From a virus, in IMG/VR virus record IMGVR_UViG_3300037826_000058, positions 55,095 to 119,094 of that record: a stretch of 64,000 bases of DNA, one strand, 5' to 3'. The notes below the pieces were generated by a model, which had not been told where the DNA came from, did not search any database, and saw nothing but the letters and a program-made list of their open reading frames with translations. Both the position numbers and the translations under genes were made by a program. Positions 26,216 to 49,423 of the stretch are shown here, piece after piece (position 1 is the stretch's first letter; each line of letters opens with the position of its first letter).

Positions 26216-26291
26216 GATTCAGGTGAGCTTAGTTATATCATATCATTTGCATCGCGGCGTAGTTTCCGCGAGCTAAGAATTGTACGTTAGA

Positions 26292-26321
26292 AGTTTACTT
26301 TGGTGAGGTATCAATTGTCAA
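26292..26321 (-). promoter_or_regulatory. Possible sigma70-type promoter of the virion operon
   Basis: Minus strand: TTGACA (26321-26316), 18-bp spacer, TAAACT (26297-26292). The -35 is perfect and the -10 weak. It is the best candidate in the divergent region to start the virion transcript. Confidence 0.45.
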
Positions 26322-26361
26322 GGTTGGCGGTGATTGCACATAAAGATGACTAACGAATCGC

Positions 26362-26390
26362 TTGACAAACCTAGGTATATGGTGTATAAT
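26362..26390 (+). promoter_or_regulatory. Consensus sigma70 promoter giving a leaderless transcript
   Basis: TTGACA (26362-26367), 17-bp spacer, TATAAT (26385-26390). The expected start point is about 26397, which is the A of the ATG of the following methylase gene, so the mRNA would have essentially no 5' leader. Confidence 0.85.
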
Positions 26391-26396
26391 TGCTGT

Positions 26397-26969
26397 ATGA
26401 AAAACCAAAAAGCCCATGTTCTGGCATTTAGTAGCGAAAGCGTTGAGTATTATACTCCCTCAGAAATCATCGAGGCTGCGCGGTCTTTGATGGGGGGAAT
26501 AGACCTCGACCCCGCCTCCTGTGTGGAGGCACAAGAGACTGTTAGGGCCAGAACGTTTTATACCCAACAGGACGATGGCCTTAAACAGCAATGGGAGGGG
26601 CGAGTCTGGCTTAATCCTCCTTATGGGAAGATTGGGAACGAATCATCTCAGGGGTATTGGGCCGAAAGGCTCATCGTAGAATATGATATGGGGAATGTTG
26701 GGGCGGCGTGTCTCTTGACGCGCTCCGCCTTGGGCTACGAATGGTACGAATCCCTGCTAGATCGACTACCTGTTTGCTTGTTTCGCAAACGAGTTGAGTT
26801 TGTCATCCCAGGGGGAGGCACCAAAGGCCCCAGTAAACAAGGGGTGTCGGTTTTCTATCTGGGAGAGAACAGAGCTGGCTTTGTAGAGCACTTCGGGGAA
26901 TTCGGAAGAATCATTTTCCCTGAGGATTATAAGGGGGGCAAGGATGTATGGCAAGCTAACCTTTGGTAA
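26397..26969 (+). CDS. dam: Phage-type DNA N6-adenine methyltransferase (Dam-like)
   Basis: 190 residues. FSSESVEYYTPSEIIEAARSLMGGIDLDPASC opens the fold, WLNPPYGKI carries the catalytic NPPY (about residue 73), and GVSVFYLG follows near the C-terminus. This is the pattern of phage DNA N-6-adenine-methyltransferases. It probably protects phage DNA from restriction or marks it. I use the ATG at 26397, directly at the predicted start point of a consensus promoter. A longer in-frame reading from 26334 would run through the promoter. First gene of a short plus-strand operon. Confidence 0.85.
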   Translation: MKNQKAHVLAFSSESVEYYTPSEIIEAARSLMGGIDLDPASCVEAQETVRARTFYTQQDDGLKQQWEGRVWLNPPYGKIGNESSQGYWAERLIVEYDMGNVGAACLLTRSALGYEWYESLLDRLPVCLFRKRVEFVIPGGGTKGPSKQGVSVFYLGENRAGFVEHFGEFGRIIFPEDYKGGKDVWQANLW

Positions 26970-41081: not shown

Positions 41082-41153
41082 TACCCCCAGCAGGATTTGA
41101 ACCCGCGTCTTCTGATCGAAAGTCAGATGTCCTATCCCCTAGACGATGGGGGC
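41082..41153 (-). tRNA. tRNA-Glu(TTC)
   Basis: Anticodon loop CTTTCGA on TCTGA/TCAGA; acceptor GCCCCCA/TGGGGGT; T-arm GCGGG-TTCAAAT-CCTGC. Its 5' end overlaps the last codons of the cytosine methylase gene. Confidence 0.9.
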
Positions 41154-42541
41154 CCCTGCTCCACGGTTACAATTTGATTACCCAACCACTCGGCAACATT
41201 AACTGTCACAGCATTACCGAGTTGTTTGTAACGCTGGGTATCACTAAGAAGCCTTTTTACCTGATGGTCACTCAATTCTTCACCATATATTCTATGATAA
41301 TGGTAACGCAAATAGTCAATATCCTCTCGACCCAAGCTTTTTGTGCGTTTTTCCATTACCGCTGTCCACATATCGGGGAACCCCTGTAACCGCTCGTATT
41401 CAAGTGGTGTTAAACGACGAATTCCTACACAGGGATGCCTTTGTCCCCCTTGAGACGAATCCAAGGTTGGACAAATATCATGAATACGATGTGTACCATC
41501 TTGGCTACGCGGGCTCCACAAAACATAATCTTTTTGCCCGCTACTCCTAGTCATAGAGCAAGACAGTTGTTCTTCCCCAACCTCTAAATTAACACTCCCC
41601 TTTCTACTTCTCATAGACACCCCTCTAACCACCAAATCAGTTTCTCCTTTGTAGTCACGATGCGATACCGTCGATGCAATATTGTCTTTTTGGTAAGCGT
41701 CAGAGCGCAATTGCCTGTAGCTAACAACCAATTTACCCTCTCCCACAAACTGATTTCCCACTCCTTTTCTATCTCTGCTTTGAAGGGTACTCACTGTCTC
41801 GTTACAAACTGTTACTGCATCCCCACCTGTAGCGTCTAGCGTGTGCGTTAATTGTCTTTGAACTCCCCACCCATTACTACCTGTTTGAGCGCGTCGGCAA
41901 GCATAGGTGGTAGTTCCTTTCCCCCTTCCTTGGCACGTCGGAGTATTCCATTCGCCGCCCGTTTGCTCAAATAATACTTTGGTGGCACTGCTATCTCTAA
42001 GACATCCGACAATAAGGACTCTTCTCCGTCTTTGGGGTACTCCAAAAAATTGTGAATCGACAACGCGATATACCACTTTGTAGATGGGTCCCTTGGCTGC
42101 TCCCGCATTCCCCCAGCCCCTCTTAGGAACTTCTGGTATGATTCCGGTAAGCCCTCCCAACAAGATTGCAAAGTCTCTCCCGTTATTGGAGTTGAGAAGC
42201 CCACAGACGTTTTCGACAACAACCCATCTTGGGCGAACTTCTGTGATAATTCTATGGAACTCAAACCACAATCCCGACCGATTTCCAGCCAGTCCCCTAC
42301 GCTTTCCAGCGATGGATAGGTCTTGACATGGAAACCCTCCGGTAATAATGTCAACTGAATCGAGCTCTCTTCCTGTGATGTTTTTGACATCAGAATACCT
42401 CTCTACATTAGGCCAGTGTGTTCTCAAAACCCTTTGACAATACGGGTCTTTTTCAACCTGCCAAGCACATTCTATACCAGCACGAGAGAACCCCAAATCA
42501 AATCCCCCTATACCAGTAAAAAGGCTACCATGAGATAACAT
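41132..42541 (-). CDS. DNA cytosine-5 methyltransferase
   Basis: 469 residues from the ATG at 42541 (ACAGGAGGATAT upstream). Motif I HGSLFTGIGGFDLGF, motif IV GGFPCQDLS (catalytic Cys), motif VI VVVENVCGLL, motif VIII SQFFGVPQRRRRVLIVG, and the C-terminal motifs IX-X RRLTPLEYERLQGFPDMW ... QLGNAVTVNVAEWLG. The target-recognition region (about residues 215-360) is long and Ser/Arg-rich. It modifies cytosine in phage or host DNA. The last 22 bases overlap tRNA-Glu, and a 180-residue frame is nested inside it. Confidence 0.9.
   Translation of the reverse strand: MLSHGSLFTGIGGFDLGFSRAGIECAWQVEKDPYCQRVLRTHWPNVERYSDVKNITGRELDSVDIITGGFPCQDLSIAGKRRGLAGNRSGLWFEFHRIITEVRPRWVVVENVCGLLNSNNGRDFAILLGGLTGIIPEVPKRGWGNAGAAKGPIYKVVYRVVDSQFFGVPQRRRRVLIVGCLRDSSATKVLFEQTGGEWNTPTCQGRGKGTTTYACRRAQTGSNGWGVQRQLTHTLDATGGDAVTVCNETVSTLQSRDRKGVGNQFVGEGKLVVSYRQLRSDAYQKDNIASTVSHRDYKGETDLVVRGVSMRSRKGSVNLEVGEEQLSCSMTRSSGQKDYVLWSPRSQDGTHRIHDICPTLDSSQGGQRHPCVGIRRLTPLEYERLQGFPDMWTAVMEKRTKSLGREDIDYLRYHYHRIYGEELSDHQVKRLLSDTQRYKQLGNAVTVNVAEWLGNQIVTVEQGPPSSRG
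41848..42390 (-). CDS. Nested reading frame within the cytosine methylase gene
   Basis: A 180-residue frame on the same strand, in another phase inside the methylase gene. It contains AQDGLLSKTSVGFSTPI and VPPKYYLSKRAANGILRRAKEGGKELPPMLADALKQV. I recognise these as signatures of a phage hypothetical protein family usually seen beside or overlapping dcm genes. Either the region is dual-coding, or this frame is conserved only because the methylase is. No ribosome-binding site was verified. Confidence 0.4.
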   Translation of the reverse strand: MSKTSQEESSIQLTLLPEGFHVKTYPSLESVGDWLEIGRDCGLSSIELSQKFAQDGLLSKTSVGFSTPITGETLQSCWEGLPESYQKFLRGAGGMREQPRDPSTKWYIALSIHNFLEYPKDGEESLLSDVLEIAVPPKYYLSKRAANGILRRAKEGGKELPPMLADALKQVVMGGEFKDN

Positions 42542-42552
42542 ATATCCTCCTG

Positions 42553-42626
42553 TGACGCGGGTGGGAATCGAACCCACGACCTTGGGCTTAAAAGGCCCCT
42601 GCTCTACCTATATGAGCTACCGCGCC
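42553..42626 (-). tRNA. tRNA-Lys(TTT)
   Basis: Anticodon loop CTTTTAA; acceptor GGCGCGG/CCGCGTC; T-arm GTGGG-TTCGATT-CCCAC. Confidence 0.88.
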
Positions 42627-45344: not shown

Positions 45345-45349
45345 TTGTC

Positions 45350-45421
45350 GGCAATCGGAGGCCAACCCCTTCTTAGCTAGCATTATTCAGGGTCAGCCAG
45401 CTTATTACTCGCCCGATTGCC
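45350..45421 (-). ncRNA. Candidate structured RNA A
   Basis: A 72-base element closed by the 9-bp stem GGCAATCGG/CCGATTGCC. Inside are GGC/GCC and ACCC/GGGT helices separated by symmetric CA/CA loops and a large AT-rich loop, so it is one long irregular hairpin. It lies downstream of the Ro60-like gene between two tRNA-Arg genes. Orientation inferred from the neighbours. Confidence 0.55.
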
Positions 45422-45449
45422 AGTCCGAGACTCCAGAAGCCTTACACTG

Positions 45450-45538
45450 TTAAGCAAGGCGGTCGGCGTGCGAGGTCATGAGCCACGTCTAACTGACAGG
45501 CGCACCAGTGCTTTCTTTAACCCTTTCACCTTGCTTAA
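45450..45538 (-). ncRNA. Candidate structured RNA B
   Basis: An 89-base element closed by the perfect 10-bp stem TTAAGCAAGG/CCTTGCTTAA. Inside are a GTGCG/CGCAC helix and small hairpins such as GTC-TAACT-GAC, giving a branched fold. It is 4 bases from tRNA-Arg(TCG) and immediately downstream of the Ro60-like gene. Not a canonical tRNA: no T-arm consensus. Confidence 0.55.
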
Positions 45539-45541
45539 GCA

Positions 45542-45613
45542 AACCCTCGGCGGGAGTTGAACCCGCATCAGCGGGGTCGAAGCCCACCGCTCTCTCCTTT
45601 GAGCTACGAGGGC
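45542..45613 (-). tRNA. tRNA-Arg(TCG)
   Basis: Anticodon loop CTTCGAC on GTGGG/CCCGC; acceptor GCCCTCG/CGAGGGT; T-arm GCGGG-TTCAACT-CCCGC. The 5' end overlaps the last codons of the Ro60-like gene by 10 bp. Confidence 0.88.
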
Positions 45614-47019
45614 ACAACCACTTTGTCGTAGCGTTCATCCATCAAAGTGTTTTCCATCACACTTTGTGGGTCAGCTACTCCGTTCATCACAGCCTGCATC
45701 AGCGAGGGCGAGAAGCCCGATAGCAACCCCACACCACTCTCCGACATCTTTGCGGGGATGCCACTGCTGCTTCTCACGTTCCAGAAAATGACCTGTGGGA
45801 ACGTGTATCCAGCTTCCTTGTACTGGCTTCTCATCATCTCTAAGGCGTTTTTGTCGCCATCCTCAATACAGCGGTCAAACTGCATGTCGCTGATGATTAG
45901 GATGTTTTTTGGCATCTCTTCGTCGGCAAGCTCGGCTCTTTTGGCCCGCATTAACATCAGGTCAAATACCGCCTCAAGGTTGGTGTTCATGTCCCAGTTC
46001 ATGTCCCTGATGGCACACATTTTCTCTTCTAACGTGCCACTAGGAACACGGAAAAACTTGGGTTTCTCTGAGAAGGTCACCACCACATTTTCAAATGGCC
46101 CCTGCAGTTGCTCAGCAAAGTACAGCGCCAATGACACTGACACTTGCATTGGTACACCATCACCGGTGTTCATGCTAGCTGATACATCAGCAACAACCAA
46201 CGTACCGTCTGGTGTGTCCTGCCGAGGCAGGGACTTCCACTGGGCATTCATTGCTCTCACGGTTGAGGGTGTAGCATAACCCAGTAACTTCCGAGCAATC
46301 TCATGCGGGTGAATTGCCCCAGCGTGAACGTCTTCCTCCCCGCTCTCAACACGTTCTAGGAATGCATTGAAGCGGTCGGGCTGGTGTCTGGCAAAAGCGT
46401 CTCGATACTTGGCAAAGGCTTGCGACGGAACGTGGGCAAAGTTGATTCTGTCCCACCTTCCTGCACACATGAGGTTCTCGACAACCTCGGTGTTTCGGGC
46501 AAGCAACTTGCGGTACTCTCGACGTGATAGACCAAACTTCTCCACCAGATAGACCGCGATTTCGTGTTCGCTCTTGCCTTCACGTGGCATCCACTTAGCA
46601 CATAGCTTATCACCTTCTGTCAGAGCTTCCCAAATGAAGGTCAAAGCGTCGTCTTCAACAGGTGTCCCCAAACACACATACAAAACATCATCCCATCGCC
46701 CATAGTGAGGAATGTTGTGTATATTTGCCTTGATGTACTCAGGATGTACCTGGGCCAACCAGCGGGCCGCCAGTCGAAACGAGCGTCGTTCTCCCATTCC
46801 ACCCCGCACGTCTCTAAGGCAAAACAAAGAGCGCATCGCCAGCTCATCGCTTTCCCCAAAAGCCGTGGCAAAGTGACCTACAATGGTATCAACACTCTGC
46901 CCTCGATACCCCCCCATTTTGAAAAACCAATCCAGCATGTGACTGCCAGACGTGGAGTGGGTTGGCATAAAATTCTCTGTTAGGGTGTCGTTCGTGGTCA
47001 TCGCGTCGAAGAAGTTCAT
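45604..47019 (-). CDS. Ro60-like TROVE/vWA protein (DUF2828 type)
   Basis: 471 residues. The N-terminal helical-repeat part (about 25-265: FFKMGGYRGQSVDTIVGHFATAFGESDELAMRSLFCLRDVRGGMGERRSFRLAARWLAQVHPEYI ... IPHYGRWDDVLYV) matches TROVE/DUF2828 proteins. The C-terminal vWA domain begins TLVVADVSASMN (DxSxS MIDAS, about 270), with TNLEAVF and IISDMQFD completing the metal site. Ro60 proteins bind Y RNAs and misfolded RNAs. Four related stem-loop RNAs lie just upstream and two more just downstream. AAGGAGGAGAGG precedes the ATG. Sited within the tRNA array. Confidence 0.8.
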   Translation of the reverse strand: MNFFDAMTTNDTLTENFMPTHSTSGSHMLDWFFKMGGYRGQSVDTIVGHFATAFGESDELAMRSLFCLRDVRGGMGERRSFRLAARWLAQVHPEYIKANIHNIPHYGRWDDVLYVCLGTPVEDDALTFIWEALTEGDKLCAKWMPREGKSEHEIAVYLVEKFGLSRREYRKLLARNTEVVENLMCAGRWDRINFAHVPSQAFAKYRDAFARHQPDRFNAFLERVESGEEDVHAGAIHPHEIARKLLGYATPSTVRAMNAQWKSLPRQDTPDGTLVVADVSASMNTGDGVPMQVSVSLALYFAEQLQGPFENVVVTFSEKPKFFRVPSGTLEEKMCAIRDMNWDMNTNLEAVFDLMLMRAKRAELADEEMPKNILIISDMQFDRCIEDGDKNALEMMRSQYKEAGYTFPQVIFWNVRSSSGIPAKMSESGVGLLSGFSPSLMQAVMNGVADPQSVMENTLMDERYDKVVVPS

Positions 47020-47042: not shown

Positions 47043-47094
47043 AGCCTGCTTTTGTTTTGGTTTCAGGAACCATTTGAGTTGCTGTGAGCAGGCT
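47043..47094 (-). ncRNA. Y-like RNA candidate 1
   Basis: 52 bases, terminal stem AGCCTGCT/AGCAGGCT. On the minus strand the 5' strand is followed by cACAGCAActCAAATGG, then hairpin GGTT-CCTGA-AACC and an A-rich 3' strand. Shares the ACAGCAA motif and layout with the next three elements. 24 bases upstream of the Ro60-like start. Confidence 0.6.
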
Positions 47095-47111
47095 TAGACG
47101 ATTATTCCTAC

Positions 47112-47170
47112 AGGCTGCATTAGGGTGAAAGATTAAAGGTCTTTTTCATTTGAATTGCTGTAAGCAGCCT
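47112..47170 (-). ncRNA. Y-like RNA candidate 2
   Basis: 59 bases, terminal stem AGGCTGC/GCAGCCT. Minus-strand 5' part TTACAGCAATTCAAATGA matches candidate 1 closely. An inner A/T-rich hairpin (AAAGA/TCTTT) follows. Confidence 0.6.
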
Positions 47171-47183
47171 AAACAAGTCCGTC

Positions 47184-47245
47184 GGGCTACCATTTGGGTA
47201 AGGCCGGTATTCCGGTCTTTTGATTTGGTTTGCTGTTGGTAGCCC
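47184..47245 (-). ncRNA. Y-like RNA candidate 3
   Basis: 62 bases, terminal stem GGGCTACC/GGTAGCCC. Minus-strand 5' part AACAGCAAACCAAATC; inner hairpin CCGG-AATA-CCGG. Stem sequence differs from the other copies while pairing is kept, i.e. covariation. Confidence 0.6.
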
Positions 47246-47256
47246 AATTATTTCAC

Positions 47257-47349
47257 GGTCTGCTATTTTATATCCAGCGCCAGCTTTATGAGGGAGTCGA
47301 ACCCTCGGATACTCTTCTTTAGAGAGTTATTTTTTGCTGTAAGCAGACC
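47257..47349 (-). ncRNA. Y-like RNA candidate 4 with tRNA-like module
   Basis: 93 bases, terminal stem GGTCTGCT/AGCAGACC, then TTACAGCAAAAA. Inside lies a tRNA-like pair of arms: ACTCT-CTAAAGA-AGAGT (anticodon-arm-like) and GAGGG-TTCGACT-CCCTC (T-arm consensus), without tRNA acceptor or D-arm. Ends two bases from tRNA-Glu(CTC). This layout recalls bacterial YrlA RNAs, which carry a tRNA mimic. Confidence 0.6.
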
Positions 47350-47351
47350 AG

Positions 47352-47424
47352 TACCCCCAGGGAGATTTGAACTCCCGTTACTGGCTTGAGAGGCCAGCGT
47401 CCTTAACCGCTAGACGATGAGGGC
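47352..47424 (-). tRNA. tRNA-Glu(CTC)
   Basis: Anticodon loop CTCTCAA on CTGGC/GCCAG; acceptor GCCCTCA/TGGGGGT; T-arm GGGAG-TTCAAAT-CTCCC. Confidence 0.88.
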
Positions 47425-48273: not shown

Positions 48274-48331
48274 TCCCCCTCGATGGCATCCCCTACATAC
48301 CCACATTCTCCAACTAGACCACCGAGGGGGC
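48274..48331 (-). other. Truncated tRNA-like element
   Basis: 58 bases closed by the perfect stem CCCCCTCG/CGAGGGGG. A D-arm-like GGTCTAGTTGGAGA follows the 5' strand, but there is no T-arm consensus and only a poor middle hairpin. It sits exactly where a tRNA gene would, between tRNA-Asp and tRNA-Met. Either a tRNA remnant or a minimal tRNA mimic. Confidence 0.5.
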
Positions 48332-48836: not shown

Positions 48837-48918
48837 TGGAGGTGGCGGGACTCGAACCCGCGTCCCCACCAGTGCCCTTCGGCTTCAAGGTGGGTCGATT
48901 TCCCTTTTCGACACCCCC
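48837..48918 (-). other. tRNA-like element resembling a tmRNA tRNA-like domain
   Basis: Acceptor GGGGGTG/CACCTCC, D-like arm TCGA-AAAGGGAAA-TCGA and T-arm GCGGG-TTCGAGT-CCCGC preceded by GGAC, as at the 3' end of tmRNAs. Instead of an anticodon arm there is CCCACC ... GGTGGG with an 18-base loop. Too short for a full tmRNA. Its 5' end directly abuts the solitary right-end repeat at 48919. Confidence 0.55.
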
Positions 48919-49394: not shown

Positions 49395-49423
49395 ATTATA
49401 TCACGATTGGGCCGGTTTGTCAA
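49395..49423 (-). promoter_or_regulatory. Consensus promoter of the tRNA array
   Basis: Minus strand TTGACA (49423-49418), 17-bp spacer, extended -10 TGaTATAAT (49400-49395). Drives tRNA-Ala(GGC) and the genes beyond. Confidence 0.88.

Follow-up and report, generated by a model that had tools for sequence, protein, structure and literature searches.

A tandem array of four small structured RNAs beside a viral DUF2828 gene: probable members of a widespread family of candidate Y RNA analogues

The window analysed here, a stretch of 64,000 nucleotides, is part of a 119,094-base IMG/VR virus record. On its minus strand, within a cluster of 34 tRNAs, four small elements lie in tandem and occupy, as an earlier note on this DNA had claimed, the whole gap between a tRNA-Glu(CTC) gene and the ATG at 47019 of a gene for a DUF2828 protein. 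An AAGGAGG ribosome site lies immediately 5' of this ATG. Read 5' to 3' on the minus strand the elements come in the order 4, 3, 2, 1, and all share one layout: a stem strand is followed by ACAGCAA, an interior that differs from element to element, and the second stem strand. The features are listed below with their scores for the covariance model R1 (see below) and for the Rfam model RF01414.

45604..47019, minus strand: DUF2828/DUF7788 gene, Ro60 fold, 471 aa (Pfam; AlphaFold pLDDT 87; PDB fold matches)
47043..47094, minus strand: element 1, core-only RNA; stem AGCCUGCU/AGCAGGCU, CACAGCAACUCAAAU; R1 30.5 bits, E 6e-6; RF01414 20.5 bits
47111..47170, minus strand: element 2, core-only RNA; stem AGGCUGC/GCAGCCU, UUACAGCAAUUCAAAU, 3' CUG; R1 34.2 bits, E 5.5e-7
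47184..47245, minus strand: element 3, core and inner GC hairpin; 9-bp stem GGGCUACCA/UGGUAGCCC; R1 19.5 bits, E 0.0083
47256..47350, minus strand: element 4, core enclosing tRNA-like arms; 8-bp stem GGUCUGCU/AGCAGACC
47290..47306, minus strand: T-arm of element 4, GAGGG-UUCGACU-CCCUC (from the sequence)
47311..47327, minus strand: anticodon-arm-like hairpin of element 4, ACUCU-CUAAAGA-AGAGU (from the sequence)
47351..47424, minus strand: tRNA-Glu(CTC), upstream boundary of the array (ARAGORN)
49395..49423, minus strand: sigma70-type promoter TTGACA-17-TATAAT, 12/12 consensus matches, heading this part of the tRNA cluster

The four tandem elements that the earlier note had observed are real. 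All four copies of ACAGCAA were found on the minus strand where it had placed them, and the CAAAT that it saw after three of them is present in elements 1 to 3. It had also described closing stems of 7 to 8 bp; four complementary stems do occur, with 8, 7, 9 and 8 Watson-Crick pairs in elements 1, 2, 3 and 4, so that the stem of element 3 exceeds this range. One further A-U or U-G pair can be added to the stems. The minus strand of the window holds 17 copies of ACAGCAA, and a stem of at least 7 pairs is found only at the four copies of the array; at random positions the chance of such a stem is 0.019 per site for at least 7 pairs, 0.0066 for at least 8 and 0.0014 for at least 9. In element 4, both the anticodon-arm-like hairpin and the perfect T-arm that had been described were recovered, and the element scores 17.2 bits with the Rfam tRNA model, below its threshold of 29.

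Several other features of the window were recorded. The gap at 45345-45541 (minus strand), downstream of the DUF2828 gene and tRNA-Arg(TCG), contains two long closed stems without CAGCAA, UUAAGCAAGG/CCUUGCUUAA and GGCAAUCGG/CCGAUUGCC; it has no match in Rfam and folds no better than shuffled sequences (z -1.05). A tRNA at 48837-48918 (minus strand) is recognised by Rfam (35.4 bits) and missed by ARAGORN. Between tRNA-Asp and tRNA-Met, at 48275-48331 (minus strand), an acceptor-like stem CCCCCUCG/CGAGGGGG encloses tRNA-like sequence, which is not recognised as a tRNA by ARAGORN or by Rfam. At 41848-42390 (minus strand) an open frame of 180 aa is contained in that of a same-strand C5 DNA methylase gene (41132-42577), and is either an overlapping gene or an insertion.

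The protein encoded next to the array was analysed by sequence and by predicted structure. Pfam recognised DUF2828 and DUF7788/VWA in the 471 residues, and the TROVE domain (PF05731) was not matched in this search. An AlphaFold model made with 40 relatives reached a pLDDT of 87 and has the helical-repeat ring and the VWA domain by which the Ro60 fold is defined. Its 12 best matches in the PDB were all Ro60, Rsr or TROVE structures (E 5e-9 to 4e-7), the Ro60 of Thermus phage phiLo among them, whereas a sequence-profile search of the PDB reached TROVE chains at E 0.03 only. We conclude that the protein has a Ro60 fold within a separate sequence family. Relatives of it are encoded in 682 phage records. 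Since a TROVE protein is present in only 1 of the 13 genomes that have element-bearing DUF2828 loci, the DUF2828 protein is usually the sole Ro60-type candidate partner.

Homologues of the elements were searched for at loci anchored on the protein, because an initial pattern search of viral contigs had been hard to use: those examined for their multiple copies (L071 and L027) turned out to hold coding-like repeats. The nearest tRNA-flanked IMG/VR relatives of the DUF2828 gene, with 49 and 45% identity (L002 and L004), carry such elements too, upstream of the gene and surrounded by tRNAs. A strict descriptor (5' G, stem of at least 6, NCAGCAA, stem, C-UG) was then run on 90 DUF2828 phage loci and gave 63 matches on the gene strand versus 2 on the opposite strand. 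Within 1 kb of the gene lay 47 of the 63, 37 of them downstream and 10 upstream. In a separate count over the same distance, 46 gene-strand matches stood against 0 on the opposite strand, and 59 scrambled motifs gave a mean of 0.95, mostly due to overlapping ACAGCA. At 28 of the 90 loci the descriptors detect nothing within 1 kb of the gene, and some genomes carry elements at distances of 10 kb or more. The common core combines a 5' G and a terminal stem of freely variable sequence with UACAGCAA immediately inside the stem, an A-rich interior and a 3' CUG. Rfam 15 has no entry for the family, and the papers located, which did not include the main ones on Y RNA, do not describe it. Two further associations were dropped: membership of an RtcB RNA-repair cassette, with RtcB in only 2 of 33 DUF2828 phages, and a motif GGTGAAAGGGT in common with a Felix-O1-type phage, seen at only two loci and consistent with chance.

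The covariance model R1 was built from an alignment (A3) of 28 short elements, none taken from the window. Strong covariation is seen in the pair counts of A3, but its elements had been selected for pairing, so this evidence is not independent. In the window, R1 found elements 2, 1 and 3 as its only matches at E<=5; element 4 was missed by this model with its short interior. R1 had matches in 32 of 32 DUF2828 phage genomes, many of which had contributed no sequence to it. No match was found in T4 and T5, from both of which the DUF2828 gene is absent, and on 50 random viral contigs, none with a DUF2828 match, the top score was 19.4 bits. The earlier note had proposed such a model and had counted a lack of covariation or of homologues in related phages against its reading. 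That outcome did not arise: a model free of window sequence recovers three of the four elements and homologues in many phages; these are numerous, and their stems pair despite differing sequence.

On 80 DUF2828 loci of bacteria and archaea R1 gave 48 matches, all on the gene strand and most of them within a few hundred bases of the gene on its upstream side. The loci come from Chloroflexi, Clostridia, Spirochaetes, Endomicrobium and Gammaproteobacteria, and also from contigs binned as Woese- and Lokiarchaeota, where the binning may be wrong. The elements are mostly downstream of the gene in phages and upstream in bacteria, and they are not peculiar to phage tRNA clusters, since bacterial and a few archaeal-bin DUF2828 loci also have them. 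At 8 TROVE loci from 8 genomes, a small control, R1 found nothing.

The family combines the core with tRNA modules in several ways. The core occurs alone, around a permuted tRNA or, itself circularly permuted, in place of an anticodon arm. The DUF2828 gene of Klebsiella phage KP2025 is followed by five elements; two consist of the core only, and two others, which enclose a permuted tRNA, score 40.1 and 34.3 bits with the YrlA model (cut-off 69). The same arrangement is found in a Felix-O1-type phage, in Cronobacter phage S13 and in Blautia. In the opposite topology the acceptor, D and T arms of a tRNA are present and the anticodon arm is swapped for the permuted core (stem-UG-loop-stem-GCAGCAA). 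A descriptor for this form, run on 171 loci, gave 36 matches on the gene strand versus 4 on the opposite strand, and one Lachnospiraceae locus has four such elements in tandem, none called as tRNA by ARAGORN. Two genes of Cronobacter phage S13 that bear the annotations tRNA-Ser and tRNA-OTHER (L132 7890-8010 and 8020-8132) are tRNA bodies with the permuted core as anticodon arm. Element 4, which has a T-arm and an anticodon-like arm without an acceptor, looks by its sequence like a partial form of the tRNA-inside topology. A single RNA architecture is seen here in two circular arrangements, as a permuted tRNA in Y-like ends and as a permuted Y-like core in a tRNA body.

The earlier note had regarded the elements as Y-like RNAs beside a Ro60-like gene. 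They are structured and linked to the gene, and some relatives have YrlA-like tRNA modules, but their sequence is not that of Y RNA: the YrlA and Y RNA family models of Rfam have no match in the window. Like YrlA (RF02553), the family elements adjoin a Ro60-type gene, have paired 5' and 3' ends with a separate effector module and, in some relatives of the window elements, contain a modular, permuted tRNA-like domain. Unlike them, YrlA has an aligned consensus stem without CAGCAA, and the relatives of the elements score below the YrlA cut-off. RNA C and D of T4 and the stable tRNA-like RNAs of T5 are likewise small, stable and located in phage tRNA clusters; as family members they were rejected, R1 finding no match.

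Expression was considered from promoter sequences and from published data on Listeria phage CKA15. In the window, the promoter at 49395-49423 likely drives the array, judging from its consensus sequence. A dedicated promoter for each element was dismissed, as one was seen for 1 of 63 elements, which does not exceed background; good ones occur in CKA15 and at the locus L353. In CKA15 this promoter precedes three tandem elements directly 5' of the DUF2828 gene, which score 42.2, 37.1 and 30.5 bits. The authors of the CKA15 study obtained very high read counts for three non-coding regions at most 2 kb upstream of the DUF2828 gene and suggest that these might be Y RNAs (PMC12282133). One of the three, 26,236-26,727, is the most transcribed region of CKA15 and is left unexplained by them (PMC12282133); it corresponds to L415 6461-7012 and is a ROOL-like RNA (RF03087, 90.1 bits, cut-off 99.1). 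They also detected the DUF2828 protein CKA15_055 (L415 7992-9512) in purified particles, with 20 peptides and 57% coverage (PMC12282133). From its presence there, the Ro60-like protein, perhaps with RNA, may accompany the DNA into the host.

Taken together, the four RNAs of the array quite probably belong to a widespread family whose small structured RNAs serve DUF2828 proteins as RNA partners and are functional analogues of Y RNAs. The strand and the position of the RNAs are strictly linked to the DUF2828 genes. Against this reading count the phage loci with nothing within 1 kb of the gene, the elements at large distances, the variable side of the gene on which they lie and the placement of the protein outside the TROVE family by sequence. 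Other explanations were weighed against this one. The array could be a cis-acting leader: its hairpins would be operators in the Ro60-like mRNA by which the protein turns down its own translation, and free RNAs would not be made. The array does lie directly upstream on the same strand in the window, in CKA15 and at the majority of bacterial loci, but most phages have their elements downstream of the gene and others kilobases away among tRNAs; moreover, every element is closed by a stem of its own, and many contain or stand in for parts of a tRNA body. We consider the leader unlikely.

It is still harder to credit that the elements are primarily tRNA decoys, baits for anticodon nucleases or host tRNA-modifying enzymes, which would be linked to DUF2828 through joint tRNA protection while the core is not bound by the protein. 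Their place in tRNA clusters and the intact tRNA arms of many copies would suit such a role, yet conservation peaks in the core, and the tRNA part is missing from most phage copies. The same location in a 34-tRNA cluster and the tRNA arms of element 4 could also be explained by decayed tRNAs or inter-tRNA spacers retained by chance. This is very improbable and already contradicted by the distribution, since phages and bacteria share the conserved core, which is confined to DUF2828 genomes and missing from the tRNA clusters of T4 and T5.

If the RNAs are partners of the DUF2828 protein, the elements would be transcribed together with the tRNA array, perhaps from the promoter at 49395-49423, and excised from the transcript of the cluster by processing at the stem ends. 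The ring of the DUF2828 protein would grip the core, and the varied interiors, a hairpin, a T-arm or a tRNA body, would be adaptor or decoy modules. Through them one protein might engage tRNA-handling enzymes or gate its cavity, by analogy with Y RNAs and Ro60 or Rsr.

The core is not that of a Y RNA; with its stem, CAGCAA and CUG it instead closely resembles that of the Dictyostelium class I RNA. Of the Rfam models, elements 1 and 2 match RF01414, the model of this RNA built from amoebae, best, with 20.5 and 22.1 bits, and in the whole 119-kb record element 2 ranks first and element 1 second; the gathering score of 41.5 bits is not reached by any element, the phage maximum being 32. In 30 DUF2828 phage genomes, RF01414 gave E<0.01 in 17 (best 5.5e-6), nearly all matches coinciding with R1 or descriptor sites. 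One of 52 controls matched (T4, 24.3 bits), so the model is unspecific near 24 bits and is read jointly with R1. Class I RNAs have a 5' G, a paired variable stem, an 11-nt motif and a 3' CUGU in about 60 nt, are reported as dictyostelid-only, and have the RRM protein Rnp1A as demonstrated direct binder (PMC7919456). Both groups have the 5' G, a short terminal stem (6-bp in class I) kept in pairing and not in sequence, (U)UACAGCAA beside its 5' strand, an A/U-rich variable interior, a 3' CUG(U), a length of about 60 nt and many divergent copies. C6, C9, A10 and A11 of the class I motif are present in all four window elements, whereas T3 and the 3' CUG are found in elements 1 and 2 only, elements 3 and 4 ending in CCG. 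PMC7919456 describes neither tRNA modules nor a link to DUF2828 for class I RNAs. Because the motif is short, homology is unproven, and the resemblance has possibly arisen by convergence. That the DUF2828-linked RNAs and the amoeba class I RNAs are one ancient family, with protein partners of one type, is a tentative suggestion from sequence likeness, which we hold to be doubtful.

With these elements, the large DUF2828 family, comprising 682 phage records, hundreds of bacterial loci and plant proteins, gains a candidate RNA partner whose defined core is open to mutational testing. The similarity to RF01414 offers a lead on the function of the Dictyostelium class I RNAs, reported as dictyostelid-only. 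Should both groups indeed share an origin and a type of protein partner, these abundant RNAs of the amoebae would be the Y-like RNAs of a protein with the Ro60 fold, rather than something that arose with dictyostelid multicellularity.
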